Origin: Xestospongia bergquistia
Taxonomy: Eukaryota; Porifera; Demospongiae; Haplosclerida; Petrosiidae
Direction of reading: 5' to 3'
Assembly (NCBI GenBank): GCA_963965975.1
Contig: OZ014411.1
Location: 23,853,249-23,917,248, forward strand
Length of the DNA stretch: 64,000 nucleotides
Below are positions 2,079 through 55,034 of the stretch, piece after piece. A program made the translations under genes and the position numbers. The notes beneath the pieces are model-generated. The model did not search any database, had not been told where the DNA came from, and saw only the letters and a program-made list of their open reading frames with translations. Numbering within the stretch: position 1 is the stretch's first letter; the number at the start of each line of letters is the position of its first letter.

Positions 2079-2127
2079 TCAATTATCCTCATTTATAATT
2101 GATATAGGTTCATCGGGGTCTGTGTAG
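2079..2127 (-). CDS. P1 proposed C-terminal tail exon
   Basis: After a CATTAG acceptor, phase 2 joining to the SMB exon gives Cys followed by YTDPDEPISIINEDN and a TGA stop. The same exon occurs downstream of SMB in P2, P3 and P4; P3 lacks exactly one codon, so the frame is kept. A variant poly(A) signal ATTAAA lies at 2023-2018. If the donor inside TGGTAA is not used, this block is instead 3' flank. Confidence 0.6.
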
Positions 2128-5100
2128 CTAATGAAGATGTAGCAATAAATATTTCATAAGTTTTACATTTTAAAGAGAAAATTCAGTAACTACATGCATA
2201 TACAAGTACTTCATACATTGATGGACTATATCTGACTAACATAATATGGGCACATGTTTGAAAATGTCAAATTTGTTTCTACTATATTTTGTAATTACTA
2301 TATATTTTGTACAATGATGTAGTAAAAAAGAAATTTAACAGACAAAGGCATTGAATCATCAAGCAAATATTAACTGATCAATGCAGCTGATGCTCATCCT
2401 AGTTGATGATTATTTTTTACAATCTACTAAAATTTATGAGATTGCTTGACTTAAAAACTAATAAAGCAAGAGTTTGTTATCACTGAAGAACAAAATGGGA
2501 TTGATTTCAACAAGCTGATTTAAAAATTGTTTTTATCCTGTCTCTTATTGTGTAATTTTTTCAAAGTATCTATAAATGTATTTTATTATCACTGAAGTGC
2601 CATATCACCAAGAGTTATGTCATTTGTGTAATCCTGAGTTGGCAGGTTTTTATCTTGCAGTAGACAATGAATTTTGATATATTATATAACATATCATGAA
2701 AGTCTCATTGTTCCACATCACCATTCTTTTAAAAGTTAATAGATATTGCTTAGAGATATAACTCAGATATCTAATTCTTATATTATATTATATTATATAT
2801 ATATATATAACAGAGTTGAAGGACAAAAGAACAGAGCACTCGCTTTGTTGCTGTTATTCCGAGTTTCATGCGTTATGCGATCATCAGACAGATATAATGA
2901 GTTTAGAGTCTATACATTTTGAATGTGTCACCTCTATATAATGCATATAGACCTGATATCATGTTAATATGCAAGAATATTGTACTTGACAAGTTAAATG
3001 GCCCATTGGGTGATACCTTTATAAATTTCTTTTTTTAACAGGTTTATTTAATGTATTTATATGAGGTGCCGTTTGTGTCAAAATTGAAAAATAATCATGA
3101 TATAACAAATAAGTCATTATTTATCAAATTACTGTTGAATTACTTCTTATTTATGGAGCACTGTTTGTGTCAAAATTAGATGCATTCAATGGTACATTTA
3201 ACATGTTATGATTTACTTTTTATTGTTACTTAATAAAATGTGGAGCACAAGTACCACGAGCCATCTCATAGAATCGAGCGTCAGCAAGATGTTTCCAGTT
3301 GGGTTGGGTGCCTGACTTTTGTTGTATATTTGTAGGTCTATTATTTAGGGAAGTTAAGGACGGACATTAAAACTCCGTATAATCCCGTTATATTGAAATT
3401 GGAATGTCCGTGACAGTCCATCTGAGGCTTCTGTATATTTTAATAAATAATAACTTATTTATTATATCATGAAAAAATTTCCAATTTTGACACAAACAGT
3501 GCCCCATACATTTAGACATCTGAACCATGATATATATTATACATATATGCTATATATAAAAAATACTTTTAGAAATATTACTGTTATCATTTCAATGAGA
3601 TGAGCACCTTTTGAAGTTCTCATCTATCCTTCACTATTCCATTATCAATAATTGAATAGATACTATAAAATTGTGCCATCATTGCTGTGCTCTTTCTATT
3701 TTTTTCTGATGAACACTGATGTATTACATAAACTATTGTTTTGCCTTACCAGTTAGAGTAGCAACCAATATCAGCTATATCACTACAACAATCATTATAT
3801 TCGTGACAGCTTTCATCACAAAAGCATCTGAAGTTATAGCATTTTCCTGACAAGGACCGTTTACAACATCCAGAATAGCTCTGCTTAAGTGCTAAACATG
3901 AACCTAAAATAAATATATGAACACCTTGATTCAATTTGTAGTGCTCATTTACCTTGTATAGGTGAAGGTGCGATTTTTGAGCCTATATAAGAATAGTAAT
4001 AAAAATGATGATTGTTATATAATGTTATGGGTTAGTATCACGTCAGTAAATCTATGCTCTAGAATCTATTCTCTATATTTTAAGGTTTATTTTGTTAATA
4101 TTTAGAGTTTACATTTCTAAAAAATTCATTTGCAATAACCAGGGTCCACAATTTAAAGTATCTTGATACATCACAAAATTAAAAGTAAACAGCATCATTT
4201 AACTACTGATACATACAACAGCCAATGATTTTCATTAATGCTAACCATAAGAGATTCAACAAATGATGCTTGAAACTTTTCACTAGGTTACTTTTATGCC
4301 TTTAATTCCTGTTATTCTTATGTTATATTCTTCCCCAGACACTCCTGCTAATTATATACACTCTATTCAGTGTTTCACTTAGAAATGTGTATGTTTCAAA
4401 AATTTGCAGGGTAGTTTTTCAGCTATAATCTTGTTGTTCCTTTTTTGTATCTATGTAGATCATGTCATCATATTTTCTTCTAAGACATTTGTCAACTTTG
4501 AGCAATTTTTGCTGTTGAAAATGACTTTAGGTCATATCTTGTAGATATTAAGTTTGTATCCAGTAGTAGTATGTCAATTGTAAACTATCATCACTTAACT
4601 ATATCAACATATATTATAGTACTTTTCATTGGTATAGGAATTGCTAATCATAATAGTCAAGATTTTGAAAAAATATATATTTTGCATAAATTAAAGGGAA
4701 AATCATGTGTAAGTGAATTTTATCATTCTCTCAACCTCATAAATATAAGCTCCTGTAAGGATCCACTTTGTAATATGTAAAGTAGATTGCTTGTCTAGAG
4801 TTACTATGGTTTTAACACTTCACTAACAACTTCCAAAAAAGGAAATAGGGAGTGATTTGTAGTAACAATTAAAATTGTGACAGCCTTACATTATTATTGC
4901 ATGCAGGACAATGAAGTATCTGTTAAAACTTCTTTATGTAAATAAGATGTTAAAAAGAATTTAGTAGCTCTGATAATTAACTACAAGAATGTTAAGTTAT
5001 AATCAGTATGCATAAGTAATAACAAAAGTATGACAGTAAATAAAATATGCAATATTCAAACATGACATCATTAGTATGACTCTACTTAATTATTAGATAT

Positions 5101-8100
5101 ATGTGACAATAAATGCATTCAAAAAGCATCCAAATTGCAAATTTCTAAAAGCATTCAAATTGAGGTTATTCATTCTATATTTCATTTTACTACAACTAAC
5201 TGTTATGAAGTTAAACAAATAGAATAACAAATTTTATACAAAGCAGTCATTTTTTTTTGTTTTGTGGTTTTTGGTTAGTATTGAATACTACAAGAAAAAC
5301 GTTGTATTACTCTTTTGCAATCATCATATATTGCTGTTATAATAGACTAGATTTAATTGATTTGTAGTCACTTGTCTTGTCTTGTAATGTATGCTTCCCC
5401 TAAAACAATATACACTGTTTTGATTATTACTTACTATGGAACTTCACACTTTATATACTTGAACATACAAATTCTTTAAACGAACATGTGTGTAGCATGT
5501 ACTATAAATCTATAATAACAGATCTTATACACCTAAAATAACACAGATTAGATTAGATTATTTGATAACACAAATGTCTACTAACCATGAAACTTCTTCA
5601 AATTCATAATGAGCTATATAGACATTAAGCTGAATGTACATCAATTTGATAATAAGCTCAGTACATGACTCTCATTTAACAGATAACAGCATTATGTATT
5701 GAATAATGGATTTCAAACTAACATCACCTGACAACTTCTGCAGTGATGGTTCTACAATCTACACTATAGTGTTTTTCATTGGTATAGTAGTTGGTAATCA
5801 CAATTATTTTAATGCAAGAAAGACACTTTTGTGATATCAGTTTCTGCTAGGCTTGTTACATCCTAAGAGTTTATTTATAGTTGTTATTAATTAATAAATT
5901 TATAAAATATAAATTACTTTACAGTATGATAGCACATGTAAGTGCATTACAGAATTCTCTTTACCTCCTAGATGCAAACCTATGTAAAGATCCTTATCAA
6001 TTTGTCACTATATTGTTTTGATTGTTATAGTTACTATGGATTTGACATTTCACAAATGACTTCTAAAAAGCAAATAAGGAGTACTCTATAACTATAATAA
6101 AAGTAATGACAACCCTTACACACAGAACCATATAGAATCTGTTAAATTTTCTTTTGTCTAACTAATGAGATATCAAACTAATCATAATAGTTCTGACTAA
6201 TAATTATCTATAGTATTGTTAGGTATCAGTCAGTATATATATATATACACATGCACAAAGACGTTTTATTATAACCGTTGTTGCTTAAAAAGAATAGCAC
6301 ATGTAATTGCACTCCAGTATTCTCTCAAATTCCTACATATATACCTCTGTCATGATCCTTATCTCTCCACTATATATTACTTAAACTACATTGTTTGTCA
6401 CTATGCTGTTTTTAAAGCCATAGTTACTATGAATTTGTCAATCACAAAAGACTTCCAAAAAAGGAAAAAGTGAGTACTCTTTAAAAACAATAAAAATAGT
6501 GACAGCCCTTACATTGTTACACACAAGACAATGCAGCATTTTATATATATATAAGTAATGAAACTATTAATTATAATGAATGAATCTGATTGATATTATT
6601 AATGATAATGAACTGTATATATGATAGCTGTTAAAATATATTTGTTATAAGCAGATTGTACCTTATTTTGATAAACTCAGTATATGAGTCACAATTAGTA
6701 TATTTTAGAGAAACAGTATTGTTATGTTTAGTATATTTTGTCATATAAAGTTTAAATATGGATTACAAACTAAATTTCTAAAAATGGTCATGTGTGTAAT
6801 ATGTACTATAAATTCTATTTTAACACATCTGTAATATCACAGCAAGATTATATAATGACAGTCATAACTCATACACCCACCATCCTTAAAAATTATTTTG
6901 TCTTCATAATGAGCTATATAAACATTAAGCAGGATGTACATCACTTTTTTAATAAACTCAGTCTATAGCTCAATTAAGAGAAAACAACATCATGTTTTTA
7001 CTATATTATAACATATAATATATAAATGTAGATTATTAATTATTATTGCTATTAATTCTGTATATACAAAATACAATACTCCAAATCTAATGTAGAAATT
7101 TTTATAATAATGTTTTAATCTTCAGATTGCCTACCATACAATGTGTCATGCTGTAAAAATCATTGGACGCACATATAATAACGTTTTCAGATAATGCAAA
7201 ATTTTACAATATTTAAAGAAAATTACTATTGATGTATAAAAGCCAGTTAGTTGTTGTATTTTGTAAACTGTAGAAAAAAAACTATATTCTAGTGTTTCCA
7301 ATAGGTTTTGTTTAATCTGAGATGAAGTCAATAGTTGGTTAACTTACTGTTAATGTACAAAAGACAGTTGGGAGATGTGTCTTGTAAAATAATGGGAAGA
7401 TTATTAAAGTTTAGTACACTCATTAAACAATCTTCTGATAGTTTTTCCGCTATCTGAAATGGAGTCAGCAGTGGTTGTTGCTGTAAATATAGTGCTATTA
7501 CACCACTAACTAAAGGAGTAGCCATAGATGTTCCTGATAGAGTTAAAGTACAAGTACATTCACTACAGCGGTAATCAGCTCCTATCACATCTGAGCCAGG
7601 AGCAAATATATCAACACAAGAGCCACCATTCGAGAAAAAAGACACATCATCTCCTCGAGCAGAGCTAGCAACAGTAATAACACCAGGTGCACTAGCAGGA
7701 CTGAGATCACAGGCATCACCTCGACTATTGCCAGCAGATGTAACTATTGGTATTCCTATATTAATGATATTGCTTGACACATTGTTAAATAAACTAGAAG
7801 TTGGACTATTCAATGACATAGAGATGATAGCTGGACGATGAGGATTTTTATTGGTGATATTTGTTGCAGCAGAATTTAATCCATCTATTATAACATTCAA
7901 TGGTGCAAATCCCCAACAATTTAATACACGAACACTGTAACAGTTAGCTTTTATAGCAACACCATAAAGTTTACCACAAGCAAGACTTGCTACATGAGTT
8001 CCATGTCCACGACAATCTCTACCATGTAGAGTAGTGTTATAGTAGTTGTCAACTGGGTCATATCCGGTATACAGTGCTCTGTTATTATCAAATTCACTAT

Positions 8101-9064
8101 GGTTGTAATTAATACCTATACATAGAATTAAATTTATACAAAACATCCATAGCTTTTTTGTTTACCTGTATCTAAAATATAAATGTCAACACCTTCTCCA
8201 TCTAGTCCAGTTTCAAATATACTATCTAATACTGGACTGACTTGATCAATACGATCCAGTGCCCATGAAAGTGAAGCTTCAGCAAATGTCTCTTCTTCAA
8301 CAAACTCAACATTGTCAAGATCTTTTATCTGAGTAAAAGTTATGTAATTATAATATTATATGCTTCATATAATGAGATTCATAGTCTATACATCTTAGTT
8401 GGTTCTATAAAGTAAAATGTAAGAGCATTGACAGATTGTTTTATCTTTGATAATGATAAAAATAGTAGGTTCATAACATCTTATAACAACCTTTATTGAT
8501 TGGTCAATAAGCATTATATAATCCTCCTTATATGAGATTTTGCAGTTAACAAAAATATAATATTGATTGACAGGCAGATGCTACTTTAATAGTGATAATT
8601 TAGTGTGAATGTCATGATAATGTATATCAATATTATAATGGTTTATCAACTATGTGTGATACATAAACCCACTAACTGTAACACTGTAATATATAGCACT
8701 CATTGAAATTGTCACAAACATCTTAGTTCACAATCACACACACACACACAATTTATATATAATTTCTATGTTTATATCTATGTTTAAGGCTAACCTTATT
8801 TGCTTCATCTACTGACAACTCTGTCACAATAACTTTAGCAAATTGACCTTCTATTTTATGGATTTCGGAACTTAAGGACTGATTTTGAACTTTTTCAGCA
8901 ATGGCTTCAAATCTTTCATGACTAGTATCAAGTGTCAGTACAACCATATACTGACCTGTTGTCTCTATTCCAGGAGCAGCATGAATAACTTCACGTGTCT
9001 GCACTGCCGCTACAAGGAGAATAACTAATATCAGAACTTGGTACTGACTTGTACGAAATTGCAT
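2079..9064 (-). CDS. P1: secreted proteinase K-like S8 protease with SMB domain, no NIDO
   Basis: Model of six exons on the minus strand: 9064-8795, 8328-8166, 8115-7348, 3982-3953, 3903-3746 and a proposed tail 2127-2079. All junctions have GT/AG and phases fit (0, 1, 1, 1, 2). If translation stops at the TAA at 3748-3746 the product is 462 aa; with the tail exon it is 477 aa. Order: signal peptide about 1-23, I9 prodomain about 38-90, S8 domain about 110-400, a 10-residue linker, then SMB. Catalytic residues are Asp143, His182, oxyanion Asn274 and Ser341. Intron 3 is 3.4 kb and holds no recognisable NIDO exon, unlike P2 and P4. The product is expected to be secreted. Exon structure is inferred from homology between copies, without transcripts. 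Confidence 0.82.
2811..2892. repeat. Half copy of foldback element family B
   Basis: The sequence matches one arm plus the centre of the 38374-38509 element (shared words GACAAAAGAACAGAGC and CGCGTTATGCGATC with small changes), in reverse orientation. It sits beside a (TA)n run, as the full copy does. It lies in the proposed last intron of P1. Confidence 0.6.
3052..3512. repeat. Foldback MITE family C with about 80-bp inverted ends
   Basis: The left end has GTTTGTGTCAAAATTG followed by CATGATATAA and AAATAAGT. The right end read in reverse has the same words in the same order, so the terminal inverted repeats are about 80 bp. A related internal copy of GTTTGTGTCAAAATT occurs near 3165. P2 and P3 lack this segment at the matching place, so it inserted after the duplications. 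It is noncoding. Confidence 0.65.
3746..3982 (-). CDS. P1 linker exon and somatomedin B exon
   Basis: A 30-nt exon (3982-3953) encodes SKIAPSPIQ, the counterpart of Pro/Thr linkers in the other copies. The next exon (from 3903) encodes an SMB-type domain with ten cysteines in the pattern SC..GCC..KC..RCFCDESC..DCCSDIADIGC. The exon ends AACTG followed by GTAAGG, which can be read either as Trp-stop (TGG TAA) or as a splice donor in phase 2. SMB domains are extracellular, disulfide-rich protein-binding modules (vitronectin, ENPP family). Confidence 0.8.
   Translation of the reverse strand, partial: AQKSHLHLYKVNEHYKLNQGVHIFILGSCLALKQSYSGCCKRSLSGKCYNFRCFCDESCHEYNDCCSDIADIGCYSNW
3983..7347 (-). 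other. P1 intron 3 with dispersed repeats
   Basis: This stretch between protease and linker exons carries several degenerate copies of a repeat also found in intron 3 of P2, P3 and P4 (marker phrases TTCACTAA...CTTCYAAAAAAGGAAATAGGGAG and GTGAGGGTTCTACAATCTAC). Copies lie near 4560-4870, 5720-6110 and 6300-6540. Short open frames at 4571-4780 and 6216-6473 are not shared with other copies. No NIDO-like exon was seen on either strand. Confidence 0.6.
7348..9064 (-). CDS. P1 protease module (signal peptide, I9, S8)
   Basis: Exon 1 (270 nt) encodes a hydrophobic leader (VLILVILLVAAVQT) and the I9 propeptide core GQYMVVLTLDTSHERFEAIA. Exon 2 (163 nt) carries the Asp motif YILDTG; exon 3 (768 nt) carries DCRGHGTHVAS, VTSAGN and SGTSMATPLVSG. 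The start is the ATG at 9064 rather than 9085: in P4 the upstream in-frame triplet is GTG, so only the MQF/MKF methionine is shared. The substrate-binding strand reads SMSLNSP where P2 and P4 have SMSLGG, so specificity may differ. Exon 3 ends ATTAACA|GTAAGT, identical in P1, P2 and P4. Confidence 0.88.
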
Positions 9065-9069
9065 GTTTA

Positions 9070-16377: not shown

Positions 16378-16426
16378 TCAATTATCCTCATTTATAATTG
16401 ATATAGGTTCATCAATGTCTGTGTAG
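16378..16426 (-). CDS. P2 proposed C-terminal tail exon
   Basis: The acceptor CATTAG is followed by a frame giving YTDIDEPISIINEDN and TGA, identical in protein to P4. ATTAAA lies at 16322-16317 as a likely poly(A) signal. This depends on use of the GTAAGA donor that overlaps the TGGTAA end of the SMB exon. Confidence 0.6.
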
Positions 16427-19400
16427 CTAATGAAGATACAACAATAAATATATTTGATAATTATTACCGCTTGTAATAAATGATTCAGAAACTATATGTA
16501 TATACAACTATTTTATACATTGATAAACAATATGCAACTAACATAATATGAACACATGTTTGACAGTGTCAAATCTGGCTAGCTATTTTGAGATGTTAGT
16601 GTAACTTGTATGTAATGCAACATATAGAATGTCCTGACAGCTTAAATAGCCCATTAAGTCATACATTTTATAAATTATCTCATTGGCAGGCTTATATAAT
16701 GAATATATACCTTTGAATCATGATATATATTATACATATATATAAATACACTTTTGAAAATATTAGAGAAATTATATATTATTGAAAAAATGTGTAACTA
16801 ATGTATTGAAGCGTCATCATATCAAAGTGACAGGCACTCTTTGTAGTTTTCATGTACCTTTACTATTCCATTATAAATAATTAAATAGATGCTCAAAAAA
16901 TTGTGCTTGTGTATTGTGCCTTTTGTGTTACTTTTTCTGGTTAACACTGATGTGTTATATGAGCTATTGATTTGTCTTACCAGTTATAATGGCAATCAAT
17001 ATCAGCTATATCACTACAACAATCATTGTATTCATGACAGCTTTCATCACAATAGCATCCGTTATCATAACATTGTGATGACAAGGACTGTTTACAACAT
17101 CCACAATAGGTCAAGTTAAGTGCTAAACATGAACCTAAAATAAATATATGAACAACTTCATTTAATTTGTAGTGCTCACTTACCTTGCATAGTTGGTGTA
17201 GGTGAATGTGTGACAGTTATGTCTATTTAAGAATGATAATAATAATAATTGTTATACCATGTAAGAGATGATTATCATGTCACTAAATTTATATCATTAC
17301 TACTTCATGCATGAACTGTTAGTAAAAAATTCTAAATTAGACTAAAATGTAATCGATCTTACAAAGAAACATGAAAGATGCTATATTGAGATAACATGCA
17401 ATGACTAAGTTTAATAAATTTAAATTACCATTATTTTGTATAGGGATTCCATACATTAGTAATTTAACTAATGATTTTAGTGTGTCATTGTATATGTATA
17501 ATATGGATCATGTACATATGAAATAATGTATTTAACTAAATTATACTCTTTTTGACTACTTTGGTTGACCAACAAAATCATTACTTTATAATGCCATTGC
17601 CATGTCATGTATAAAACAAACTACTAGTTTAAATATATACAGAATTAACAAATGTTACAATACAGATTATGTCAATCATGATATATATCTTGCTGATTCA
17701 TATGACTAAGTTAATACAGTATTATCATAAGAAATTTGGATAACTGACAGTAGCACACTTGACTTTAGTTATAAGCTCAGATAAAAAATTAACAATAATA
17801 ACCATTTGCGATAATTAGGGTCCACAATTTTAAGAATCTTTGTATATAACAAAATTAAAAGTAAACAACATAATTTAACCAACAATGTATACACCAACTA
17901 CTGATTTTCTTAAACCTTAACTTTAACCAATATAACAAATAATGTATGAAACTTTCACTCTCTTACTTCTCTGCCTATATTCCTATTTTCAATACTTATA
18001 TTCTACACTGTTGTTAACTAAACACTCTATCCAGTGTGTCACTGTTACATTAATATCTTTCAAATATTTGTAGGTTGTTTTTTAAGTTGTAATCTTAAAT
18101 TGTTTGCATTTGCATCAATGCATTGCATCGATGCAATGATGTAGGTTGATGTGCATTTGTCTCAGAAATTTGTCATCTTGTGAGCTATTCCTGCCGTTGA
18201 AAATGATCATATTTTATATATTAAGTTCTCATGGAGTGCTAGTATGGCAATTACATCTCTGTGCTACTTCTGCAGTGAGGATTCTACAATCTACACTATA
18301 ATGTTTTTCAGTGGTATAGAAATTGCTAATCGTAATTATTCAAAGCAAGAAATTTCAGATTCCAAAACAAAATTAAATTAAAAATATAATTATTAAAACA
18401 AATGTATATGTATATGTTCTAAATACTTTTATCATTGACTTGTTAACTACATCCATTGCTTAATAGTATTTACCTATAGTTTGAGTAGGTGTCACTATAA
18501 TAGATGTAGGGTCAATACTTGTTGATGGCTGAGGAGTTACACTAATAGTTTCTGAAGATGAAAAGAGTTAGTCAATAACATGTTAAGTAAAAAAAATATG
18601 CGATATTGACTGTGCTTTAAGGACATTGCAAGACAGGCTCAATTATATATGCATTCAGTATCATTGAGACAGTGAAGCACATACATAGTTTAATTCACAT
18701 TACTCTAGAGTTAACTTATTTAATGACTTACCATTTATGCCAGAGCCAGCTCCTGAACCAGAACCAGTGCCTATATGAAATGATGTATTCACATGAAATG
18801 AAGAACAACACACTTTTATAATGTTCAGTTATGTAAAGTTTTTATAAGGAACCAATAACACAACAACAAATATATAATGAACATTTTTTTACTTCATATG
18901 CTTATAAGTATGAATAAGTTCAAAAGAATTTATTATTACTATTTTTTTGACTGTAAATAATTAATATAAGTTTAATGCACACAAAACCATGCAACAAGTT
19001 GAAATGTAACATTTTACATATAGTCCAGTTAATATACTCAGAATTTAATAATCTCTTACCATTTATGCCAGACCCTGAGGATATAATAACTGGAGCATAG
19101 GAATGAAATAAAGAAAATTACATTTTGTAATGTTGTCAAGAAGCTATTACAGCAACAACAATAAATAATAATAATAATAATAATAATAATAGAATACCAT
19201 AGCCATGTCAAAAATAGTAAAGAACAAATAATATTATTTGTTAAGCAGAAAGTCCTTTGTATATCAACAAGATGATAACTAACAAAAGCATTTGCATGCA
19301 ATATTTTTGACTTCATAGATAAGCATAATAGACATAATCAGGGTGGGTGTTATAGAAGATTATTCATTGCAATACTTTATTGATTTATTATTAAATTAAC

Positions 19401-32790: not shown

Positions 32791-32876
32791 TGAATGATGT
32801 ATGAAGATGGAAAAAGTCTAATGAAACAAAGTATCCAAATACACAAACTATAACTACTAATACAGCTATTACAACA

Positions 32877-38542: not shown

Positions 38543-39603
38543 AAGCCCTTGAGTAAGCACATTTTGAATTTTGAAGTCATTGCAAGGAGGTTACTAGTGG
38601 ACCTTACAAACATACAACCATGGCAAGGGGAATTGTTCTTTCTACAGCCCATAGCAAAACAAATAAGTCCATACTAGATCTCAATGAACTAAAAACATAA
38701 ATGTGTTAGGCATTTTTAAGGACGACATGGTTAAAGACTATAGTTATGATTTAGATATATTGTATTTGGATATCATATAAAATTTTTACCTGGATTTAGA
38801 TTATATACCACATTTGACCATACAGACGAGGGATAATTGAGACAGTCAATGTCCGTAACCTTTGATGTTCTAGAGAATGCATGGTTGGCAAAATTATATT
38901 GTCCAGCACTGTAGCCAATTGCTGCATTATGCCTAGTCCATCGCAAATGATCACATTTATAAGTAAATATAGCATAAGAAGTTGATCCTTGAGATGCAAC
39001 CACAACCTGAAATGTGTTTGTCTATAAAGAAAAATAGTGAAAAATGCTTAAAGGTACTATGAAATAATTTACTTGATCACAATTGCTGTTTATTGATGGA
39101 CAGACATTATCCCACTTGGCTACAAAAACCCAATCTAAGTTTAAATCAACACTTTGATTAAGCTTTAAGAATCTTTCCACTTCATTGATGACACTTGATG
39201 TACTTGATGAAGTGAAAATTCCATACTCAACTATTCCTGTATTTGTCAATTTGATATCATCCCAAAATGGAGCTATGACTACTGCAAATGGAATTGGGAA
39301 TGATGTTGCTGAAGAACTTGTAAAGGGTGTTCCAAAACTAAGTAGACCATTAGGGCTTATCTATATCAAAGTAAAGACTAATATGATACTGCAAAATGTA
39401 TTGACTAAGACTTACATAGAGAGTATGGTAAGTACGTCTTCTAATATTAAATGTAGAAGGAAGTTGAACTGCTCTAGTATAATCATTAGCATATCTAAAT
39501 ATGCTAGCGTATGAACAAATGTCTAGAAATTTCAAGTATTTTGAATGCATACCAGATCCGGAGACAAATAGTGATTCTGAATTTATAACCCTAGATCGAG
39601 AAC
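33680..39603 (-). CDS. P3: NIDO-SMB gene without protease
   Basis: Minus-strand exons: NIDO-1 39603-39416, 39360-39073, 39021-38790; NIDO-2 37800-37646, 37592-37305, 37254-37023; linker 36694-36668; extra SMB 36618-36460; linkers 36231-36193, 35749-35672, 34522-34481; SMB 34430-34273; proposed tail 33725-33680. All frames are open, all junctions are GT/AG and phases agree with P2. No protease exons precede it: the matching segment was deleted (see the relic at 43393-43557). The first exon of any transcript is therefore unknown. It could be a living, protease-free paralog, possibly acting as a decoy or scaffold, or a recent pseudogene. Confidence 0.7.
34273..34430 (-). CDS. P3 terminal somatomedin B exon
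   Basis: Encodes SCLALNLTYCGCCKQSL, QCYDNGCYCDESCHEYNDCC and SDIADIDCYSNW, almost the same as P2 and P4. It is 158 nt to the TAA, with the same overlapping GTAAGA donor. Confidence 0.85.
34481..36231 (-). CDS. P3 linker exons
   Basis: 36231-36193 encodes GTGSGSGAGSGIN, 35749-35672 encodes ETISVTPQLSTSIDTSS and continues IIVTPTQTI, and 34522-34481 encodes ITVTPSPTPPTIQ. Order and sizes (39, 78, 42 nt) match P2, and each begins and ends in phase 1. Confidence 0.7.
36353..36853. repeat. Direct 65-bp repeats bracketing the extra SMB cassette
   Basis: The words TTATAAGTAT, GTTCAAA and TTATTATTACTATACTTTTG recur in order at 36353-36418 and 36788-36853. The linker (36694-36668) and extra SMB exon (36618-36460) lie between them. 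P2 has a single copy at 18892-18957 and no extra SMB. Confidence 0.65.
36460..36694 (-). CDS. P3 extra SMB cassette (linker plus SMB-prime)
   Basis: Linker exon 36694-36668 encodes VAPTPPVPE. The SMB exon 36618-36460 (159 nt, phase 1 to 1) encodes SCLALNLNYSGCCVPSL, TCWNYGCYCDQICHTVGDCC and SDVADIGCHPPTI. It is diverged from the terminal SMB and must be spliced at GTAAGA to reach the next linker. That donor is the same sequence that overlaps the stop in the terminal SMB exon. Confidence 0.75.
37023..37800 (-). CDS. P3 NIDO domain 2
   Basis: Exons of 155, 288 and 232 nt: FIFGSGMDSNYLTFQDL, GIVEYGIINSSNTSSIIN with LDWVMVAKWVNVCP, and NTFQVVIASEGSTSYAIF with NVVYNLSEG. It corresponds to NIDO-2 of P2. 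No NIDO-3 follows, so P3 lost it or never had it. Confidence 0.83.
38374..38509. repeat. Foldback element family B, full copy with 45-bp arms
   Basis: Arms 38374-38418 and 38465-38509 are inverted copies with one mismatch (key words AGAACAGAATTAAAGG and CAGAGCTCTCGCTGTGTTGC). The centre holds CAGACAGCTGTCTG. The element is GC-richer than its surroundings and sits within a long (TA)n run. A half copy is at 2811-2892. Confidence 0.85.
38790..39603 (-). CDS. P3 NIDO domain 1
   Basis: Exons of 188, 288 and 232 nt: SRSRVINSESLFVSGSG lead, YANDYTRAVQLPSTFNI, then VVIAPFWDDI and LDWVFVAKWDNVCP, then NTFQVVVASQGSTSYAIF and NVVYNLNPG. It corresponds to NIDO-1 of P2. It would be the first visible coding domain of P3 after the missing 5' end. 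Confidence 0.83.
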
Positions 39604-43392: not shown

Positions 43393-43557
43393 TCAGCAAT
43401 GAATGCTCTCATGACTGATATCAGCTGTCAGTACAACCATATATTGACCTGTTGTCTTGATTCCAGGGGCAGCACGAATTACTCGACGTGTCTGAACCAC
43501 AGCCGCAAAGAGAAGAACTAATATCAAAACTTGGTTATGGCTTGTAGGAAATTGCAT
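43393..43557 (-). pseudogene. P3 exon 1 remnant, rest of protease deleted
   Basis: The minus strand encodes MQFPTSHNQVLILVLLFAAV, the leader and the first part of the I9 propeptide to ISHES. There similarity to P2 exon 1 stops and continues with P2 intron 3 sequence (TTTGTTAAGGTATG words). About 1.7 kb equal to P2 28.87-30.60 kb is therefore missing, including the rest of exon 1 and exons 2 and 3. A weak GT (CAG|GTCAAT, phase 1) inside the remnant could in principle splice to NIDO-1, but this is unproven. Confidence 0.8.
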
Positions 43558-43927: not shown

Positions 43928-44190
43928 CAGTTTTTTGGCAACACCATAATTTTTTCCACAAGCAAAACTTGCTACATGATTTCCATGTCCTCTACCCCTT
44001 TGGTTAATTCCATCATTGTTGTCAACTGGATCATACCCAGTGTACAGTGCTCTGTTACCATCAAATTCATAGTGATCATAATTAATACCTATATATAGAA
44101 TAAAAACATCCATAAAATTCTTGTTTACCTGTATCTAAAATATAAATATCAACACCTTCTCCATCTCCTCCATGTTCAAATATACCAGAT
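43928..44190 (-). pseudogene. Relic of protease exons 2 and 3 from another copy
   Basis: Exon 2 end (44190-44129) encodes FEHGGDGEGVDIYILDT, followed by a normal GTAAAC donor. Exon 3 start (from 44088) encodes INYDHYEFDGNRALYTGYDP and GRGHGNHVASFACGK. The catalytic-His motif has Asn in place of Thr, and both ends are cut off. It lies upstream of the P3 promoter, so it belonged to a different gene copy. Confidence 0.75.
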
Positions 44191-45175: not shown

Positions 45176-45815
45176 ATGAAATTTCGTACAAGTCAATACC
45201 AAGTTCTGATATTACTTCTTCTTCTTGTAGCTGTGGGGCATACACGTCAAGTTATTCGTGCTGCTCCTGGAATAGAGACAACAGGTCAGTATATGGTTGT
45301 ACTGACACCTGATACTACTCATGAAAGATTTGAAGCCATTGTTGAAAAAGTTCAAAGTCATTCCTTGACTGGTAAAATCCATAAAATAGAAGGTCAATTT
45401 GCTAAAGTAATTGTTGCAAAACTGTCAGTAGATGAAGCACATAAGGTTAGCCTTAACAGACAAGCACACGCACACAGATCTATATATAACTTATAAATTT
45501 TGAATAATGAAAGTGTTGGCTCTATATAACACATATAGAGCTCATAGCAGATTATAGTTAAAAATATTTTACCTAATAAAAGTTCTAATAGCTAACTCCT
45601 TTTATAAAACAGCAAAGAGGCAAGTTTATATGGACCTGATCTTATTTTTAATATTATTGAGAGGTCTATAAGCATTATAAACCTGCTAACATCAGAATTT
45701 GAAAGACTATTACTATTGCTATATTATCAAGTGATAGTGGTAGATTGGTATGAATCTCATGATAAGTTATATCACACATCTGTTATAACAAATCTATATA
45801 CGGCCATTTGATATA

Positions 45816-45871: not shown

Positions 45872-47066
45872 CTCATTGATAGGCTTATATATCAGCAGAA
45901 CACAAAAAGATAGTTTTGTGGTTTGCATGAACCACCACTTTGCAAATATATATTAAAAATCAATAACCTGCCTACATTCTCAGGTTATAAGTTATTTTAG
46001 TCCAACTCAAAATACATGGAATATGTGACTCGTTGATATATACAATAAAAAGAATAATACTATTATATAACTATCATTATTTAGATAAAATATCTTGACA
46101 ATGTGGAGTTTGTCGAAGAAGAGACATTTGTTAAAGCATCACTTTCATGGGCATTGGATCGTATTGATCAAGTCAGTCCAATATTAGATGGTATATTTGA
46201 ACCTGGAAGAAATGGAAAAGGTGTTGACATTTTTATCTTAGATACAGGTAATGAAGAATACTTCAAATATGTGATACTAAATTCTATATAAATAGGTATT
46301 AATTATGATCACTATGAATTTGATGGTGATAGAGCCATATATCCTGGTTATGACCCAGTTGACAACTACTATAATACTACTCTACATGGTAGAGATTGTC
46401 ATGGACATGGAACTCATGTAGCAAGTCTTGCTTGTGGAAAACTTTATGGTGTTGCTAAAAAAGCTAACTGTTACAGTGTTCGTGTAATTACTTGTATCGA
46501 CTCAACACCATTGAGTATTATTGTAGATGGATTAAATTTTGCTGCAACAAGTATCACCAATAAGAATCCTCGTCGTCCAACTATCATCTCAATGTCATTA
46601 GGTGGTCCATTTAACCATTTACTCAACAATATGTCAAACAATATTGTTAATATAGGAATACCAATTGTTGTAGCTGCTGGTAATGAAAGAGATGATGCCT
46701 GTTATTATAGTCCTGCAAGTGCATCAGAAGTTATTACTGTTGCTGGCTCTGCTCAAGGAGATGATGTTTACTACTACACAAATGGTGGCCCTTGTGTTGA
46801 CATATTTGCTCCTGGCCATAATGTAATAGCAGCTGATTATAGCTGTAGTGGATGTGCATGTAAAATGGCTAATTCAGGAACATCAATGGCTACTCCTTTA
46901 GTTAGTGGAGCAATAGCACTATACTTACAGGAACAACCACTACTGACTCCATTTCAGATTAAGCAAAAACTACATGAAGACTGTTTAAAAAATGTACTAA
47001 ACTTTGACGATCTGTCCTTTTATTTGCTGCGAAACACATCTCACAATTGTCTTTTACACATTAACA
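45176..47066 (+). CDS. P4 protease module (signal peptide, I9, S8)
   Basis: Leader VLILLLLLVAVGHT; propeptide GQYMVVLTPDTTHERFEAIV; FILDTG; DCHGHGTHVAS; SMSLGGP; VVAAGNERDDACYY; SGTSMATPLVSG. Exons are 270, 163 and 771 nt. The ATG at 45176 is the only methionine near the leader, since the position used as an earlier ATG in P1 and P2 is ATA here. Exon 3 ends ATTAACA|GTAAGT; reading through instead would stop six codons later and give a protease alone, so a short isoform is possible. Confidence 0.9.
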
Positions 47067-50000
47067 GTAAGTTTCTCTAAACCTATGAAATATTTTAAGT
47101 GTGTTCAATAAGAATTTGCAGTAGCACACCGTGTGTGTCAGGTAGTCTTGAGACTGCTATTACATTAGAGCCACTTAGTATGTTTATGTGCAATTTTATG
47201 CACTTTATTTTATTTTATTCTATTACTGTATGAGACTTATATGATATATTGAATTGCAAGCATTGACTGCTGATGAACACTTAAGAAATGATTATCAGTG
47301 TCATAGCATACTATGGTGTGAGTGATAGTTGTTATATGAACTTTGAAATTCTTAAATACTGTTGAAGTACCTCATGCAACTTCTAACAACTTTAAATAAT
47401 ATATAAATGATTTTACAATTATATTTCTGATGTGAATATTTACAATATCACAATGACTAATAAAGAACTTAAAAGTTACTAAATTTTTTGAATGCATATC
47501 TGCATAAAATATCTAAACACCTTGCATAGAGTATATATGGCAATACATGTATATCAATATAATAGCTATAAAAATATATAAGACTTTATATATGCAAATT
47601 CAAACACATGGTCCTACAATACATGAACTGTAATCATTCTCTTAAGTTCTTATTTAATAACATCTCTAGACAACAACACAGAAATAAAAATAAACAAAGG
47701 ACAATCTGTTAAAACAAAGGCGTTTTAACAAATTCTGTCTTGTTTTGCGTGTAACAATGTAAGGGCTATCATTTTATTTTATTGCTATTACACATGCAGC
47801 ACTTCCTATGACCTTTTTTGAAGTCATTAGTAAAGTGTCAAATCCATAGTAACTCCAGCTATCAAAACAGTATAGTGATAACTATCTACTTTAAGTTTGG
47901 ATAGATAATGATCTTTACAGAAGTCAATATTTATGAGGTATTACAATAGAATTTATAGCACAGTATACACACTTGACCTTTCTGAAAAGTCGTATGATTA
48001 AGTAAATAAACTGTGAAGTTAGATAGTTAGTAATAGTCAAAACAGTTATTGTGTTGACATTTGCAAGATAAGTAACTACAACTAGTTGCAACAGTTCTAT
48101 TCTATCATTAATATTCCATAAATGCTAAAAGGGAACATGTCATTTTTTAAATACAAGCTAAAATCATAAAACAAGCTGATTGTATGTATTTGAAATTTTA
48201 ACAAATATAACTTGAGCATAGTAAGTCCTTTTATCATTTGAAATATAATATAGGCCTAGTAATGAATGTTTTAGAAACACTATAACCTCATCATTACCAA
48301 CAATTTTAGTAATTATTTAGTACTAAATTTATGTATCATTTTATGCATTTATTGTCACATATCTAATTGTTTATTAGATGCATAATATCCATACTTTGAA
48401 TGTTGCACATCATAATTATAGTATACTGGTTTCATCACTTTTTTAATATACTGTTAGATACTTGACAGTATTTTAGTTGATATCAGAGTTTTTAACATTT
48501 TTTTAACATTCCATTAATTAGACAAAAGACTCTAACAGATGCTACATTGTTTTTTGTGTAGCAGAGTAACAGCTGTCACTATTTTTATTGTTATCAGACA
48601 ACACTACATATTTCTTTTTATAGAAGTTATTAGTGAAGTGTCAAATCCGTAGTAACTCTAGCTATCAAAACAGTATAGTAGCAAACAATTTGAGTGTATA
48701 TATGATATAGAGTAAGTAGATAAGAACCTTTACAAAGACATATACAATTTTTTTCGTTGCTTCAAATTTAATAATACTTTTTATAAAAAAAAACAACTTT
48801 AGTAATAACAAACCTATCAAATAGTCAACTCTAAGTGATAAATAATAAATAGATAAAGTCTCTTTACATGAACTTGTATTTATAAGATAGAAAGAAGGAT
48901 AGAGTGAAATTACATTTGGTAGCACTTTTAAAAAGAAATTTAGTTGTTTTAAATTATTTAAAAAATATGGTCATAAAAAACACATTAGAATAGAAGAAAT
49001 ACCAAAACAAAATGTGGACTTTCGGACTTTCTTACTTTCATTAACTATAATTAGTAGCTAAATCAAAGCACAATTGTAATACCCTTGCTGCAAAAGTAGA
49101 AAAATAATGCTTGTTTGCAATTACCCTTACTCTTACTGCACTAGAATTTACTAAACAAGATATAATAGGTAATCTTTTATAGCAGTAAAAAAGTTGAGAA
49201 CTCGACTATTATTTTTAAGACAAATTCATACAAATGCGCCGTACATTATCTACTTGATTGCATAGATAAAAGTTGTTATATAGGTTAGCAAAAAATTAAA
49301 ATCACCATAACTTCAAATCAAACCAAGATTCCAATGTTGGATTTGTTGTAATGATTTTTTGTACATGACATAATTTTTTGAAGTGTTTAAACTTACTTTA
49401 TTGCGTGGGCAGACAAGTACATATATCATATACAAAGCAGTTCTCTTGTTTGCACAAATATTGCAATTGTTAACATTTGCTAACATGCAATTCATTACTT
49501 CTTTCTATAATAATACGTTACTATATGTATGTTTTATTATGTCCATTATTAAAGAAAGAAAGAAAAAAATAATACTTAAAAACTTCCTTCTCATTTCACT
49601 ATTTAACTTAAACACTAAAAGCACTAATATTTCTTCTGACATTCTGAAAACAAGACGTATGAAGAACAATACTTACTAATGAGCACATTATTTCTATGTC
49701 TTTTGTGTCAAATTTGTTCATAGTTGTGAGGTTATTATATGAGATTAAAAGTAGAGGAAAGATAAACAAAACTAAAACTTAATGCTTTGTGCTTACAAAA
49801 CCAAATCAAAATGACTAAATCATAACAAAATAGTGTCACAAAAAGAATTCTGCAAAGAGTTAAAATATTATGAGCAGTTTTGAGTGATGTGTTTATTATT
49901 ATCTAACAATATACTTCAATAGACTATCATGGCTATCCCTATATAAGCACAGCTATTTCATGCTTGATAAATTATTTATTAGGCTCGGCAGACGTTATTC

Positions 50001-53000
50001 CTGGACTTGGATCAGGAGCTATAGAGTCAAAACCAGGATCTGGAATGCATTTCAAATACTTAAGATTTCTAGACATATGTACACAAGCTGAGTTATTTAG
50101 ATATGTTAATGATGATACTAGAGCAGTTACACTTCCTTCTACACTTACTATTGGAAAATGCTCATATCACAATTTATATGTAAGGCTTAGTCACTACTTT
50201 TGTTGCATGATATTAGTCTTTCCATTGATTTAGATAAGCTCTAATGGTCTACTTAGTTTTGGAATATCGTTTACAAGCTCTTCACCAAAATCATTCCCAC
50301 TCCCATATGCAGTAGTGATAGCTCCATTTTGGGATGATATATCGTTAACGAATGAAGGAATAGTTGAGTATGCCATTGTCACTTCAGCAAGTGCACCAAA
50401 TATTATCAATGAAGTGGAAGGATTCTTGAAAATCAATGAAAATGTGGACTTGAAATTAGATTGGGTTTTTGTAGCAAAGTGGGATAATGTCTGTCCAATT
50501 GGAAATATCACTTGTGTTCAAGTAAATTCTTATATAATTTTATTTGAAAAAATTTGTTACTATTCATTCATTATAGGCAAACACATTCCAGGTTGTGATT
50601 GCATCTCAAGGATCAACTTCTTACGCTATATTTACTTATAAATGTGGTCTTCTTCAATGGACTAGTTACAATGCATCAATTGGTTATAGTGCTGGACAAA
50701 AGAATTTTGCAAATCACCCATTATCTACAACATCAAATGTTACAGACATTGACTGTCTTAATTATCCATCATCTGAATGGTCAAATGTGGTTTACAATCT
50801 AAATCAAGGTAAAACTAAATATTATTATATATATTTATAACTATATACTCAGCTAAGTACTTTCTATATGTATTTAATATATTTGAATATTTTTGCATGC
50901 ATAAAAAGTAAACTTGATAATAGGCTGAATTTTAAACAACAATATGAACAACCCAATTAAAATCAAGTTAACAGACTAACCATTGTTGGTATAGTCAAAG
51001 CAATTGCTCAGGTGATTATTAGTACTGTGAAACAATAAGCATTTAAGGCTATCAGTATTTATAAACACGGATGACTTTGAAAGAATTCTGCAAAAAGTTA
51101 AAATATTTTGATCTGTTTTGAGTGATGTATTTATTGGTTTCTACTAATTCATGTATAGCACTGCTATTTTATGTTTGAATTACTTTTTTTTTAATTTCAA
51201 CTGACTTTGTTCTAGGGACTGGATCTAGAGTTATAGACTCAGAATCACAATCTGAATCTGGATCTGGAATGCATTCCAAACACTTGATGTTTTTAGATAT
51301 TTGTTCACAATTTAACATGTTTAGAAATGTTGATGATGATACTGAAGTAGTTGAACTTCCTTCTTCACTTAGTTTTGGGAGAATCACTTACAACAAAATA
51401 TATGTAAGTTTTTGTCACTATATTTATGGCATCATATTAGCTTTCCATTGATTTAGATAAGCTCTAATGGTCTACTTAGTTTTGGAAAACCATTTACAAG
51501 CTTTTCACCAACATCATTCCCACTTCCATTTGCAGTAGTGATAGCTCCATTTTGGGATGATATCATATTAACAAATACTGGAATAGTTAAGTATAGCATT
51601 GTCACTTCAAGAACTACATCAAATGTCATCAATGAAGTGGAGAGATTTTTGAAACTAAATGAAAATGTCAATTTAGAATTAGATTGGGCTTTTGTAGCAA
51701 ATTGGGTGAATGTCTGTCCACTTGGAAGCATCAATTGTAATCAGGTGAATTATTCTATACTTTTAAACATGGATTACTATTTACTTCATAGACAAACACA
51801 TTTGAAGTTGTGATTGCATCTCAAGGATCAACTTCTTATGCTATATTTACTTATAAATGTGATCTTCTGCAATGGACTAGTAACATCGCAACAATTGGTT
51901 ATAGTGATGGACACAACAATTTTGCAAACCATCCTTTCTCCAAAACATCAACAGTTACAGACATTGATTGTCTTAATTATCCATCATCTGTATGGTCAAA
52001 TGTTGTTTATAATTTAAATGAAGGTAAAGGATATCAATTAGACATAATTCATAAATATAGCCCTTAAGCCAAGCCCTTTTAAAGAAAGCCTAACATTATC
52101 ATATGTTTAGTTCAGTGAAGTTCAAGGGTCAGTAGAATACTTTTAAACATGTTTTAGAGTTTAAGAATATTTGTGTTGGATTCTATATCGCAACCATATT
52201 AAAATAAGGCAACAATTGCATGTTAATTAATTTCAACCTTTTAGTCTCCCATATTAAGTCATGAAATTTAACTCATCACTAGTCTGAAAGTTATACAACA
52301 GCATGAAAATCCACATTCCAAATAAATTAACAGACTATCCATTTTTTTGTTATAGTCAAGAGAAATTGTTCAGGTTAATAATACAATATAAAACTGTTTG
52401 AATCAATAAGCACAGAGATCTTATCAGACATCCAAGTTCTATACAAACTCATGTTGTAATACTTGTGCATTTCAATTACTCTGTATCTCATATTTGTATA
52501 TAACCAGATTTCATGATGTGTATACTTAATTCAAACAATATGAATTATTTGTCACATTACACGAGAAGACAGTGAAAACTTGACAGACATTCACAATGAC
52601 AAACTTACCTTACTATGTGTTAAATAGTTAGAGAATATTAAATTTGCATTTTGTAAAATATACTTAATGGACCTTATTATTTTATTATCATTGATAATAG
52701 TTCATTTCTAAATTACAGTAGGATTTGTCTCTGGATCTGGAATGGAATCCAAGTATTTGAAATTCATTGACTTACAAGCTAAAATATTTAGAAATGCTGA
52801 TGATCAGACTATAGAAGTTGAACTGCCTTCTACATTTAGTATTGGAAGAAACATTTATAATACTACATATGTAAGATTTAGTTGCTAACTTATTATGTGG
52901 TATCATTTTAGCCTTTAATTTTTTAGATTAGTTCTAATGGTCTGCTTAGTTTTGGAGAATCATTCACAAACCTTTTTCCAAGACCATTCCCACTCTCATC

Positions 53001-54598
53001 AACTGTAGTGATAGCTCCATTTTGGGATGATATCATATTGACAGAAACGGGAATAGTTGAGTATGGGATAGTCACTCAAGCCACTTCATCAAATATCATT
53101 AATAAAGTGGAAATATTCTTGAAACTAAGTCAAAATATTGATGTGGAATTAGATTGGATTTTAGTAGCAAAGTGGGTGAATGTCTGTCCATTTGGAAACA
53201 GTGATTGTGATCAAGTAATTAAATATATACTATATTTTGAATTATTATTTGTTACTATTATTTTAATAGACAAACACATTTCAGGTTGTGATTGCATCTC
53301 AAGGATCAACTTCTTATGCTATATTTACTTATAAATGTAACTTATTACAATGGACTAGTTACGATGCAGGAATTGGCTATAGTGCTGGAAGTAACAATTT
53401 TGCAAATCATCCATTATCTAGAACATCAAGAGTTACAGAGATTGACTGTCTAAATTATCCATCATCTGTATGGTCAAATGTGGTTTATAAACTAAATGAA
53501 GGTACAACTTAACTAGATAAAATATTGTTGTGAGTAATCTTCAATAACACCTCCCGTGATTATGTCTATTATGATTATCTGTTAAATCAAAAATGTTGCA
53601 CAGATGTGCTTTTGTTAGTTATCATCTTATTGATATACAAAGCACTTTCTGCTTAACAAATAATAACACTCGTTGTTTACTATTTTTTGATGGTATTCCA
53701 TTATTATTATTATTATTGTTTGTTGTTGTTGTAATAGCTTAACAACATAACAAAGCGTAATTTTCTTAATATAAGTATATTATGGCATGACATTATTAAA
53801 ATAATGATTTTATTGTTCAACCAGGCAGAGTAAAAGGATTATAATTTAGTTAAATACCTTATTTCCTATATACATGATCCATATTATACATATACAAACT
53901 TCAATGGACACACATTACTCAAAGTACTAATGTGTGAATTCTTACATAAAATAAAACTAACTTAAACTATTAATTCTTCTTCATTGTTGTTATCTCAATA
54001 TAGTTTCTTTCATACATATCTTAAGATCACATCTTGTGTTAGTCACATTTTAGTCTAGTCAATTATTCTGGTTTAGTACTTTTTAGTTCATCATTAAGTA
54101 GTAATGATATGAATTCAATAATGTGATAATTATCCATTACATGGTATAACAATTATTACTATTAACATTTCTTATATAGACATACCTACACCTCCACCAC
54201 CACCTAAACAAGGTAAAAGAACACTATAAATCAAATCAAGGTGTTTATATGTTTGTTTTAGGTTCATGTGTAGCACTTAATCTCAGCTATTGTGGCTGTT
54301 GTAAACAATCCTTGTCATCACAATGTTATGATAATGGATGTTATTGTGATGAAAGCTGTCATTACTATAATGATTGCTGTAGTGATATAGCAGATATAGG
54401 TTGCTATTCCAACTGGTAAGACAAATCAATACATCATATAATACATCAGTGTTTATTAGAAAAGAAATACAATGTGCACAACAGCAATTATTTATAATGG
54501 AATAGTAAGTATCCATAAGAACTTCAAAGGATGCTTATACATGATAACAATACAATACATTAGCCTAATTTCTCTAATATTTCCAAATATATACATAC

Positions 54599-54683
<85 letters not shown>

Positions 54684-55034
54684 TATAATTATATATAGCA
54701 ACTTGATTAAGAGGTCAATATTATAAACCTGTTAATAAGGGAATTTATAAAATATATCAATTGATGGACTATTTAAGCCGTCATTACAATATTTTAACAT
54801 ATTAACCTGCTGCATGTACAGAAGTGGCATTAACTTTCCAAATGTGACTGTCAGGTTTAACACTCTCAAGCATGTCCCCTTATTATGTTAGATATTGTCC
54901 ATAAATGTATGAAATACATATAGTTACTGAATATTCTCTTTAAAATGTAAAAATTATCAAATATTTATTCCTATATCTTCATTAGCTACACAGACATTGA
55001 TGAACCTATATCAATTATAAATGAGGATAATTGA
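45176..55034 (+). CDS. P4: S8 protease with three NIDO domains and SMB
   Basis: Plus-strand exons: 45176-45445, 46085-46247, 46296-47066 (protease); 49983-50179, 50234-50521, 50577-50808 (NIDO-1); 51216-51403, 51457-51744, 51792-52023 (NIDO-2); 52719-52870, 52927-53214, 53270-53501 (NIDO-3); 54180-54212 (linker); 54262-54419 (SMB to stop); 54986-55034 (proposed tail). It encodes 1163 aa to the SMB stop, or 1178 aa with the tail. Approximate order: leader 1-22, I9 38-90, S8 110-401, NIDO 402-1100, linker 1101-1111, SMB from 1112. Asp, His, Asn and Ser of the S8 site are present. It lacks the Gly/Ser and Ser/Thr linker exons of P2 and P3. It is predicted to be secreted and proteolytic. Confidence 0.85.
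45810..45870. repeat. (TA)n microsatellite in P4 intron 1
   Basis: Long TA run between exons 1 and 2 of P4, absent from the 466-nt intron 1 of P1. Confidence 0.8.
47067..49982 (+). other. P4 intron 3 with inverted repeat copies
   Basis: Contains reverse-oriented copies of the intron-3 repeat (47640-47890 and 48500-48680; phrases TAGTGAAGTGTCAAATCC and AGCTATCAAAACAGTATAG). Since P4 is itself inverted, the repeats keep their orientation relative to the gene. Open frames at 48665-48925 and 49313-49679 look like chance. Confidence 0.55.
49983..50808 (+). CDS. P4 NIDO domain 1
   Basis: Exons of 197, 288 and 232 nt. Lead SADVIPGLGSGAIESKPGSG, then YVNDDTRAVTLPSTLTIG; VVIAPFWDDI, GIVEYAIVTSAS and LDWVFVAKWDNVCP; NTFQVVIASQGSTSYAIF and NVVYNLNQG. 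The third exon starts GCA where the other copies have ACA. Confidence 0.85.
51216..52023 (+). CDS. P4 NIDO domain 2
   Basis: Exons of 188, 288 and 232 nt. Lead GTGSRVIDSESQSESGSG, then NVDDDTEVVELPSSLSFG; VVIAPFWDDI, GIVKYSIVTS and LDWAFVANWVNVCP; NTFEVVIASQGSTSYAIF, NVVYNLNEG. The lead resembles that of NIDO-1 in P2 and P3, so exon-level shuffling or conversion has mixed the domain order. Confidence 0.85.
52719..53501 (+). CDS. P4 NIDO domain 3
   Basis: Exons of 152, 288 and 232 nt: VGFVSGSGMESKYLKFIDL, ADDQTIEVELPSTFSIG; VVIAPFWDDI, GIVEYGIVTQATSSNIIN, LDWILVAKWVNVCP; NTFQVVIASQGSTSYAIF, NVVYKLNEG. It is closest to NIDO-3 of P2. Confidence 0.85.
54180..54419 (+). CDS. P4 proline linker and somatomedin B exon
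   Basis: The 33-nt exon 54180-54212 encodes IPTPPPPPKQ. The SMB exon 54262-54419 encodes SCVALNLSYCGCCKQSL, QCYDNGCYCDESCHYYNDCC and SDIADIGCYSNW, then TAA. As in the other copies the stop overlaps a GTAAGA donor. Confidence 0.85.
   Translation, partial: TYLHLHHHLNKVKEHYKSNQGVYMFVLGSCVALNLSYCGCCKQSLSSQCYDNGCYCDESCHYYNDCCSDIADIGCYSNW
54591..54687. repeat. Compound microsatellite (ATAC)n (TA)n (TATG)n
   Basis: A palindromic run: ACAT units, then TA units, then TATG units. The open frames across it on both strands are low-complexity and not genes. It lies in the proposed last intron of P4. Confidence 0.85.
54986..55034 (+). CDS. P4 proposed C-terminal tail exon
   Basis: CATTAG acceptor, then YTDIDEPISIINEDN and TGA. 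ATTAAA at 55081-55086 is a likely poly(A) signal 47 bases downstream. Protein identical to P2. Confidence 0.6.

Follow-up and report, generated by a model that had tools for sequence, protein, structure and literature searches.

We analysed a stretch of 64,000 nucleotides (the window) on contig OZ014411.1 of Xestospongia bergquistia, here called C1 (C1:23853249-23917248 of a 146-Mb genome). The window lies inside a tandem array of subtilase genes, that is, genes for proteases of the Peptidase S8 family, which extends over about 23.51-23.91 Mb of C1. Four loci of this array, genes A to D, were found in the window, and they combine S8 exons with exons for NIDO modules and for modules resembling the somatomedin B (SMB) domain. 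Positions are those of the window unless C1 or another contig is named.

Genes A to D and the surrounding array

Genes A, B and D were built by hand as spliced models, with the splicing inferred from the genomic sequence. In these models, all introns are GT-AG, there is no internal stop, and each model closes with one final stop. The predicted proteins have 477 (A), 1229 (B), and 1178 (D) amino acids. The original prediction, made from the letters of the window, had named three loci carrying a proteinase K-like catalytic domain, and a complete S8 exon is present at each of them (7348-8115 and 29048-29815 on the minus strand and 46296-47066 on the plus strand); the consistent phases and the end points at 2079 and 55034 are also borne out by the spliced models.

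Genes B and D share the predicted order signal peptide, prodomain, S8 domain, three NIDO modules, SMB-like module, and tail. In gene D (plus strand), exon 1 codes for the signal peptide and prodomain (45176-45445), exon 2 for the prodomain end and the catalytic Asp (46085-46247), and exon 3 for the S8 catalytic domain, ending in a phase-1 GTAAGT donor. The three NIDO modules follow at 49983-50808 (exons 49983-50179, 50234-50521, and 50577-50808), 51216-52023 (51216-51403, 51457-51744, and 51792-52023), and 52719-53501 (52719-52870, 52927-53214, and 53270-53501). A proline-rich linker exon (54180-54212, phase 1-1), the terminal SMB-like exon (54262-54415, phase 1-2), and the last exon with the stop (54986-55034) complete the gene. 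Gene B (minus strand) has the corresponding exon 1 (30476-30745), exon 2 (29866-30028), and S8 exon 3, then three NIDO modules, each split over three exons (22143-22956, 20819-21598, and 19407-20187), the terminal SMB-like exon (16981-17134), and the last exon with the stop (16378-16426). In addition, it includes five linker exons, one rich in Ser and Gly between NIDO modules 2 and 3 (20383-20427) and four within 17184-19089 (19060-19089, 18732-18770, 18474-18551, and 17184-17222).

Gene A (minus strand) is shorter. Exon 1 holds the signal peptide and the start of the prodomain (8795-9064), exon 2 the remainder of the prodomain and the catalytic Asp (8166-8328), and exon 3 the catalytic His, Asn, and Ser, with a phase-1 GTAAGT end. 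A linker exon (3953-3982, phase 1-1), an SMB-like exon of terminal type (3750-3903), and the last exon with the stop (2079-2127) follow directly, and there is no NIDO module. Thus, the prediction of NIDO modules at all four loci holds for B, C, and D and fails for locus A (2079-9064).

Gene C (minus strand) has a broken S8 part, consisting of a truncated exon 1 that runs into a stop (43393-43557) and, upstream of it, a fragment of exons 2 and 3 (43931-44186). It has retained two NIDO modules (38790-39603 and 37023-37800), an internal SMB-like exon (36460-36618, phase 1-1), a terminal SMB-like exon (34277-34430), and the last exon (33680-33725); the limits of these retained parts were read by eye. 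Meanwhile, dead relics of an S8 exon and of exon 2 lie beside the live genes at 56610-57018 and 32693-32830 (minus strand). A TGG-TAA offers the terminal SMB-like exon another possible end. However, the last exon recurs nearly unchanged at all six loci with a terminal-type SMB-like exon, and the splice to this exon is therefore preferred.

To describe the array, exon queries were run on the window and on 200 kb of C1 (23515001-23715000), and 184 matches were found. In the 200 kb, 134 of the 137 domain-exon matches lie on the minus strand. The 138 kb from 23715000 to the window are known from search matches and two short loci (L043 and L045) only. There are 15 units with exons 1 to 3 in the window and the 200 kb, and five more pieces, short or weak, came from a profile search. 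Genome-wide, the exon-1 query gave 35 matches, 28 on C1, three on C4, and four on C13. The set of four loci that had been proposed is accordingly part of a much larger array, and the proposed expansion in this lineage agrees with the tandem array and its 28 first-exon matches on C1.

Most copies of this array appear to be maintained. Among the 28 exon-1 matches on C1, 24 are open and span the query from residue 1-6 to 90, one has two stops, and three are partial. The median ratios of nonsynonymous to synonymous substitution (dN/dS) between array copies are 0.31 for exon 2, 0.40 for exon 3, 0.53, 0.29, and 0.30 for the NIDO exons, and 0.39 for the SMB-like exon. These medians are well below 1, and the array exons are under purifying selection. 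One could suppose that the array consists mostly of decaying copies with little function, since locus C and several fragments are broken and one exon-1 match carries two stops; against the open frames and the dN/dS medians, this explanation is highly improbable.

The window also includes elements outside this gene family. An open frame of 543 amino acids from stop to stop (26909-28540, plus strand), with matches to DDE_1, HTH_Tnp_Tc5, and CENP-B_N, lies within gene B but in antisense to it, in the intron between S8 and NIDO; we take it to be a pogo/Tigger-like transposase. A piece of retroelement integrase (1-891, plus strand; Integrase_H2C2, with rve below the cut-off) is cut by the window edge. 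In addition, an open frame of 403 amino acids at 57345-58556 (minus strand) matches Peptidase_M54 (E 2.3e-7).

The protease domain and the tail modules

The Pfam profile Peptidase_S8 matched gene D with 136.8 bits and gene A with 129.3 bits (cut-off 21.8), and the spliced protein of D reached E 1.2e-39. Among solved structures in the PDB, the closest were proteinase K-type enzymes (E 7e-54) and PCSK9 (E 3e-52). The catalytic Asp is present in all 15 full-length exon-2 matches, and the catalytic His, the oxyanion Asn, and the catalytic Ser in all 14 full-length exon-3 matches. The protease is thus assigned, from its sequence, to Peptidase S8 of the proteinase K/PCSK9 type with an intact triad.

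The likeness to PCSK9 raises a different function. The enzyme might cut only itself and keep its prodomain bound, so that the mature protein would act, once secreted, as a ligand that binds receptors through its tail and catalytic surface. In line with this, the alignment to PCSK9 is unbroken through the prodomain and catalytic domain (query 36-380 vs 75-425), and a Cys pair is shared (CSGC vs CSTC). Furthermore, PCSK9 is described as secreted in the form of an inactive enzyme with its prodomain, and its C-terminal CHRD of three tandem modules as serving sorting (PMC8551645). However, the proteinase K-type enzymes score as well as PCSK9, and the proteinase K chain 8rse_A aligns to query 13-356 with its N-terminal part included (E 1.1e-40); the prodomain therefore does not single out PCSK9. 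The triad is also kept in every full copy examined, though a self-cleaving enzyme would keep it too. A PCSK9-like ligand is possible but doubtful.

The assignment of the NIDO modules is firm: in the predicted spliced protein of gene D, Pfam NIDO matched in three stretches with 288.5 bits against a cut-off of 25 (E 3.2e-86), and S8 and NIDO are the only families above the Pfam cut-off in this gene. The motif [ST]GSG occurs in 18 of 23 first NIDO exons (20 upstream codons included) and in none of 156 other exons. Ser-Gly runs of this kind can bear glycosaminoglycan chains.

The second module is less clear. Pfam SMB stayed below the cut-off, with seven of ten members matching at E<=1 (best E 0.064) and member 1 at 10.7 bits against 23.1, and none of the five PF01033 matches among the best 150 of 186 candidates scored lies in the window genes. 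The SMB domain has eight Cys. The exon here has ten conserved Cys, with a core of C-x-C-D-x2-C-x5-CC spaced as in SMB. A profile of these exons gave four PDB sequences, none significant, namely a defence-related peptide (E 0.51), an endoribonuclease (1.1), and vitronectin (2.7 and 4.9), and the endoribonuclease and both vitronectin matches span the core. An AlphaFold model of the exon had a mean predicted local distance difference test (pLDDT) score of 40.8, too low to use. Because the Pfam match is below the cut-off and the PDB matches are not significant, we term the module SMB-like. The SMB domain of the original prediction survives in this weaker form: an SMB-like exon is present at all four loci.

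A NIDO module consists of three exons and an SMB-like module of one, with small linkers added, and internal modules have phase 1-1 borders. Among the 46 non-terminal SMB-like matches, 34 have an in-frame phase-1 GTAAG[A/T] donor, nine a weaker donor, and three none. With phase 1 at both borders, internal modules may therefore be gained, lost, or swapped in frame.

Both kinds of module are widespread in the genome. There are at least 151 matches to NIDO exons, and the best 150 of 357 candidates for SMB-like exons are all matches; for both, some arrays have no S8 match listed beside them. Large arrays of SMB-like exons lie at C1:21.9-22.34 Mb and at C2:8.18-8.31 and 10.98-11.2 Mb, with no S8 or NIDO nearby among the matches listed. 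In addition, NIDO adjoins Fibrinogen_C matches at C1:12.54-12.56 Mb, C4:6.84-6.94 Mb, and C8:6.54-6.57 Mb, which is likely a second shuffled NIDO architecture. Judged from its NIDO and fibrinogen-type families, the organism is an animal. A silicatein query matched 67 cathepsin-type sequences in the genome, whereas the exact signature pattern did not occur. Trypsin-type enzymes were considered as alternative carriers of NIDO/SMB-like tails, and none of their 28 matches lies at the S8 array.

From the S8 exon to the tail

Exon 3 gave 21 matches in the array, five of them without the 3' end; the other 16, in which this end is intact, all close with a phase-1 GT donor. Since this donor is so constant, the S8 exon is probably not the terminal one. 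Past the donor, the frame meets stops at differing places, and one copy has no stop within 20 codons. On the other side of the intron, AG in phase 1 was found at 49 of 52 SMB-like matches and at 12 of the 13 first NIDO or SMB-like exons behind an S8 exon. The acceptors of several NIDO copies lie inside the match, where scripted placement was wrong, and they were read by eye.

Behind 13 of the 15 three-exon S8 units, NIDO or SMB-like exons lie on the same strand ahead of the next unit, although one of these units has a weak NIDO exon only and another only an SMB-like exon that has lost its acceptor. One further unit lies at the edge of the examined DNA, and an SMB-like exon is listed further on, at C1:23512022.

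These results bear on the possibility that there are two interleaved families, one of short S8 genes and one of NIDO/SMB-like genes, which are separate and only adjacent and co-amplified in one array. The module arrays elsewhere without S8 matches listed beside them would fit such families, and so would the gaps between S8 and tail where these are long (6,100 bp in gene B, 6,950 bp at most). However, 6 of the 14 gaps measure only 662-1,316 bp, and the constant phase-1 donor without a conserved stop is not what separate S8 genes would lead one to expect.

If the tails were genes of their own, first exons should be found in the gaps. A scan of the 14 gaps (41,271 bp) gave six signal-peptide-like first exons in sense, of which the gaps of genes B and D account for four, vs 14 in antisense. 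As a control, a scan of this kind was applied to 16 true exon-1 regions and flagged them all; this control asks for phase 0 and often settles on a donor-like site that is not the real one, and it shows that signal peptides are detected, not that donors are called correctly. Separate first exons for the tails were rejected, as the sense strand has no excess over the antisense control. Furthermore, an in-frame ATG with a hydrophobic stretch precedes two of the first tail exons (13 in all) and 16 of the 62 internal ones. First exons show it no more often than internal exons, and so it does not mark gene starts; as a candidate start of the tail it was rejected, being the acceptor pyrimidine tract in the copies read.

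Relatives on other contigs point the same way. On C4, an S8 exon with the same phase-1 donor is followed by linker and SMB-like exons, so that S8 and SMB-like exons stay together outside the array. On C13 (about 838,000-858,000; loci L011, L012, and L016), the same donor was seen in all three S8 loci read, followed by Thr/Ser-rich sequence, and the tail of L016 has a weak fibrinogen-like match (E 0.055, below the cut-off). On C10 (about 6,865,000; L010), the phase-1 donor is followed by an in-phase exon matching the BTRD1 repeat (E 1.3e-6).

Taken together, we consider two separate families unlikely. One gene spanning protease and tail is well supported, with S8 predicted to be fused to NIDO and SMB-like exons in genes B and D and to an SMB-like exon only in gene A. 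The original prediction of an in-frame fusion of protease, NIDO, and SMB therefore stands for B and D, in part for A, and not for C, which lost its S8 part; it is supported by the phase-1 donor, the matching acceptors, the lack of excess first exons, and the same intron in relatives.

The tails differ between units, with none, one, two, three, four, or eight NIDO modules. Between about 23.57 and 23.595 Mb, repeats of 1.8-5.2 kb with NIDO and SMB-like exons are 91.6-97.3% identical, and at 23770441-23785365 six NIDO matches with nearly equal scores lie about 2.88 kb apart. Such near-identical repeats are visible recent turnover of modules. The longest unit covers 56 kb, from a first exon ending at C1:23616380 to a last SMB-like exon at 23559888, and would read from S8 through eight NIDO modules and as many as 19 SMB-like ones (one partial), with no terminal-type exon recognised. 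The array might thus encode very long mosaic proteases whose tails vary quickly in length and composition between copies, and perhaps between individuals, in a system of variable recognition or self-marking that has the protease at its effector end; this idea is speculative and rather unlikely. Alternatively, the array could be a set of secreted digestive or defensive proteases, whose tails bind food particles, mucus, or microbes and not host matrix. The tandem expansion, the variable tails, and the NIDO modules beside fibrinogen-type matches elsewhere would fit this, and we hold it as a tentative minor possibility.

Proposed tethered proteases and known systems

Our preferred explanation, which we regard as probable with some reserve, is a tandem family of secreted proteinase K/PCSK9-type subtilases, one protein per gene, in which an active protease is tethered by a variable adhesive tail. 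Each gene would give one protein with a signal peptide, an inhibitory prodomain, a catalytic domain with Asp-His-Ser, and a tail of modules. The protein would be secreted and the prodomain removed by self-cleavage. The conserved phase-1 intron would join the catalytic domain to the NIDO, SMB-like, and linker modules, and the tail may reasonably be supposed to hold the active protease on partners in the extracellular matrix or at cell surfaces, and so to select its substrates. Meanwhile, unequal crossing-over between phase 1-1 modules would change the length of the tail and keep the frame.

Several observations weigh against this explanation. His replaces Gly beside the oxyanion Asn in 2 of 14 full exon-3 copies, and the Gly before the catalytic His is changed in three; with 5 of 14 altered next to these residues, some array copies may be inactive. 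A Pfam search up to E 0.1 gave no I9 prodomain match, and the prodomain alone had no PDB match up to E 1. For the S8 unit whose exon 1 ends at C1:23650380, 5.9 kb yielded no tail exon, the SMB-like exon of the unit whose exon 1 ends at 23697586 lacks an acceptor, and the relative on C7 (L009) has a stop directly after the S8 domain. The six sense first-exon candidates come as two in each of three gaps, including that of gene D and that of gene B, where the two overlap. In addition, the splicing and the proteins are read from genomic sequence alone; secretion and protease activity after maturation are inferred with them, and the tethering is suggested by the kinds of domain. Our confidence in a tethered active protease is slightly lowered by the proteinase K match of the prodomain and by the residue changes close to the active site.

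A literature search over titles and abstract openings, and over parts of PMC7853314, PMC9296861, PMC8551645, PMC12549020, and PMC5354666, gave no protein joining S8 with NIDO or SMB, which is weak evidence of absence because animal proteomes were outside the search. Subtilases with a Cys-rich or adhesive tail are already known, and on this weak evidence the NIDO/SMB-like tail appears to be new to the literature searched. Other NIDO proteins include Mesh and the tectorins, and nidogen combines NIDO with a G2 beta barrel and with EGF and YWTD repeats, in contrast to gene D with its S8 and NIDO matches. No enzyme is known to be attached in MUC4 or other NIDO proteins. MUC4 shares the NIDO domain, which occurs in extracellular proteins (PMC5354666). 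In MUC4 it is accompanied by AMOP and vWD, whereas neither AMOP nor vWD is reported in gene D. The skeletal Peptidase S8 CR_30 of Corallium rubrum, found in both mineralised matrices, is likewise an animal S8 peptidase, likened here by description only; NIDO is among the domains named, and nothing in the parts of PMC7853314 covered indicates S8 and NIDO in one protein. The SMB-like exon is weakly similar to the SMB of vitronectin and endoribonuclease through its Cys core (E 1.1-4.9) and differs from it in its ten Cys and its score below the Pfam cut-off.

PACE4 and PC5A (PCSK6 and PCSK5) have a kexin-type catalytic domain and a P domain, whereas the array enzymes are of proteinase K type and genes A and D have no P domain in Pfam up to E 0.1. 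The likeness is in the plan: PACE4/PC5A are secreted subtilases that a Cys-rich domain at their C terminus anchors to the cell surface (PMC9296861). PCSK9 resembles the array proteins in the putative prodomain, the catalytic domain, a pair of Cys close to the active Ser, and a modular C-terminal part rich in Cys, which in PCSK9 mediates binding. However, the array tail is made of NIDO and SMB-like modules, and PDB searches with the SMB-like profile and with NIDO module 1 did not find PCSK9. Human has one PCSK9 gene, whereas the subtilases here form an array.

If the fusion is true, the array would be a clear case of phase-1 exon shuffling, in which interchangeable tails (NIDO/SMB-like, perhaps fibrinogen-like and BTRD1-like) are set on one protease body and many stages of shuffling coexist in a single genome. 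One could then ask in what way the modules of a tail steer a protease outside the cell towards its substrates. One could also ask whether tethered enzymes of the proteinase K type arose in animals independently of the solutions of PACE4/PC5A and PCSK9.

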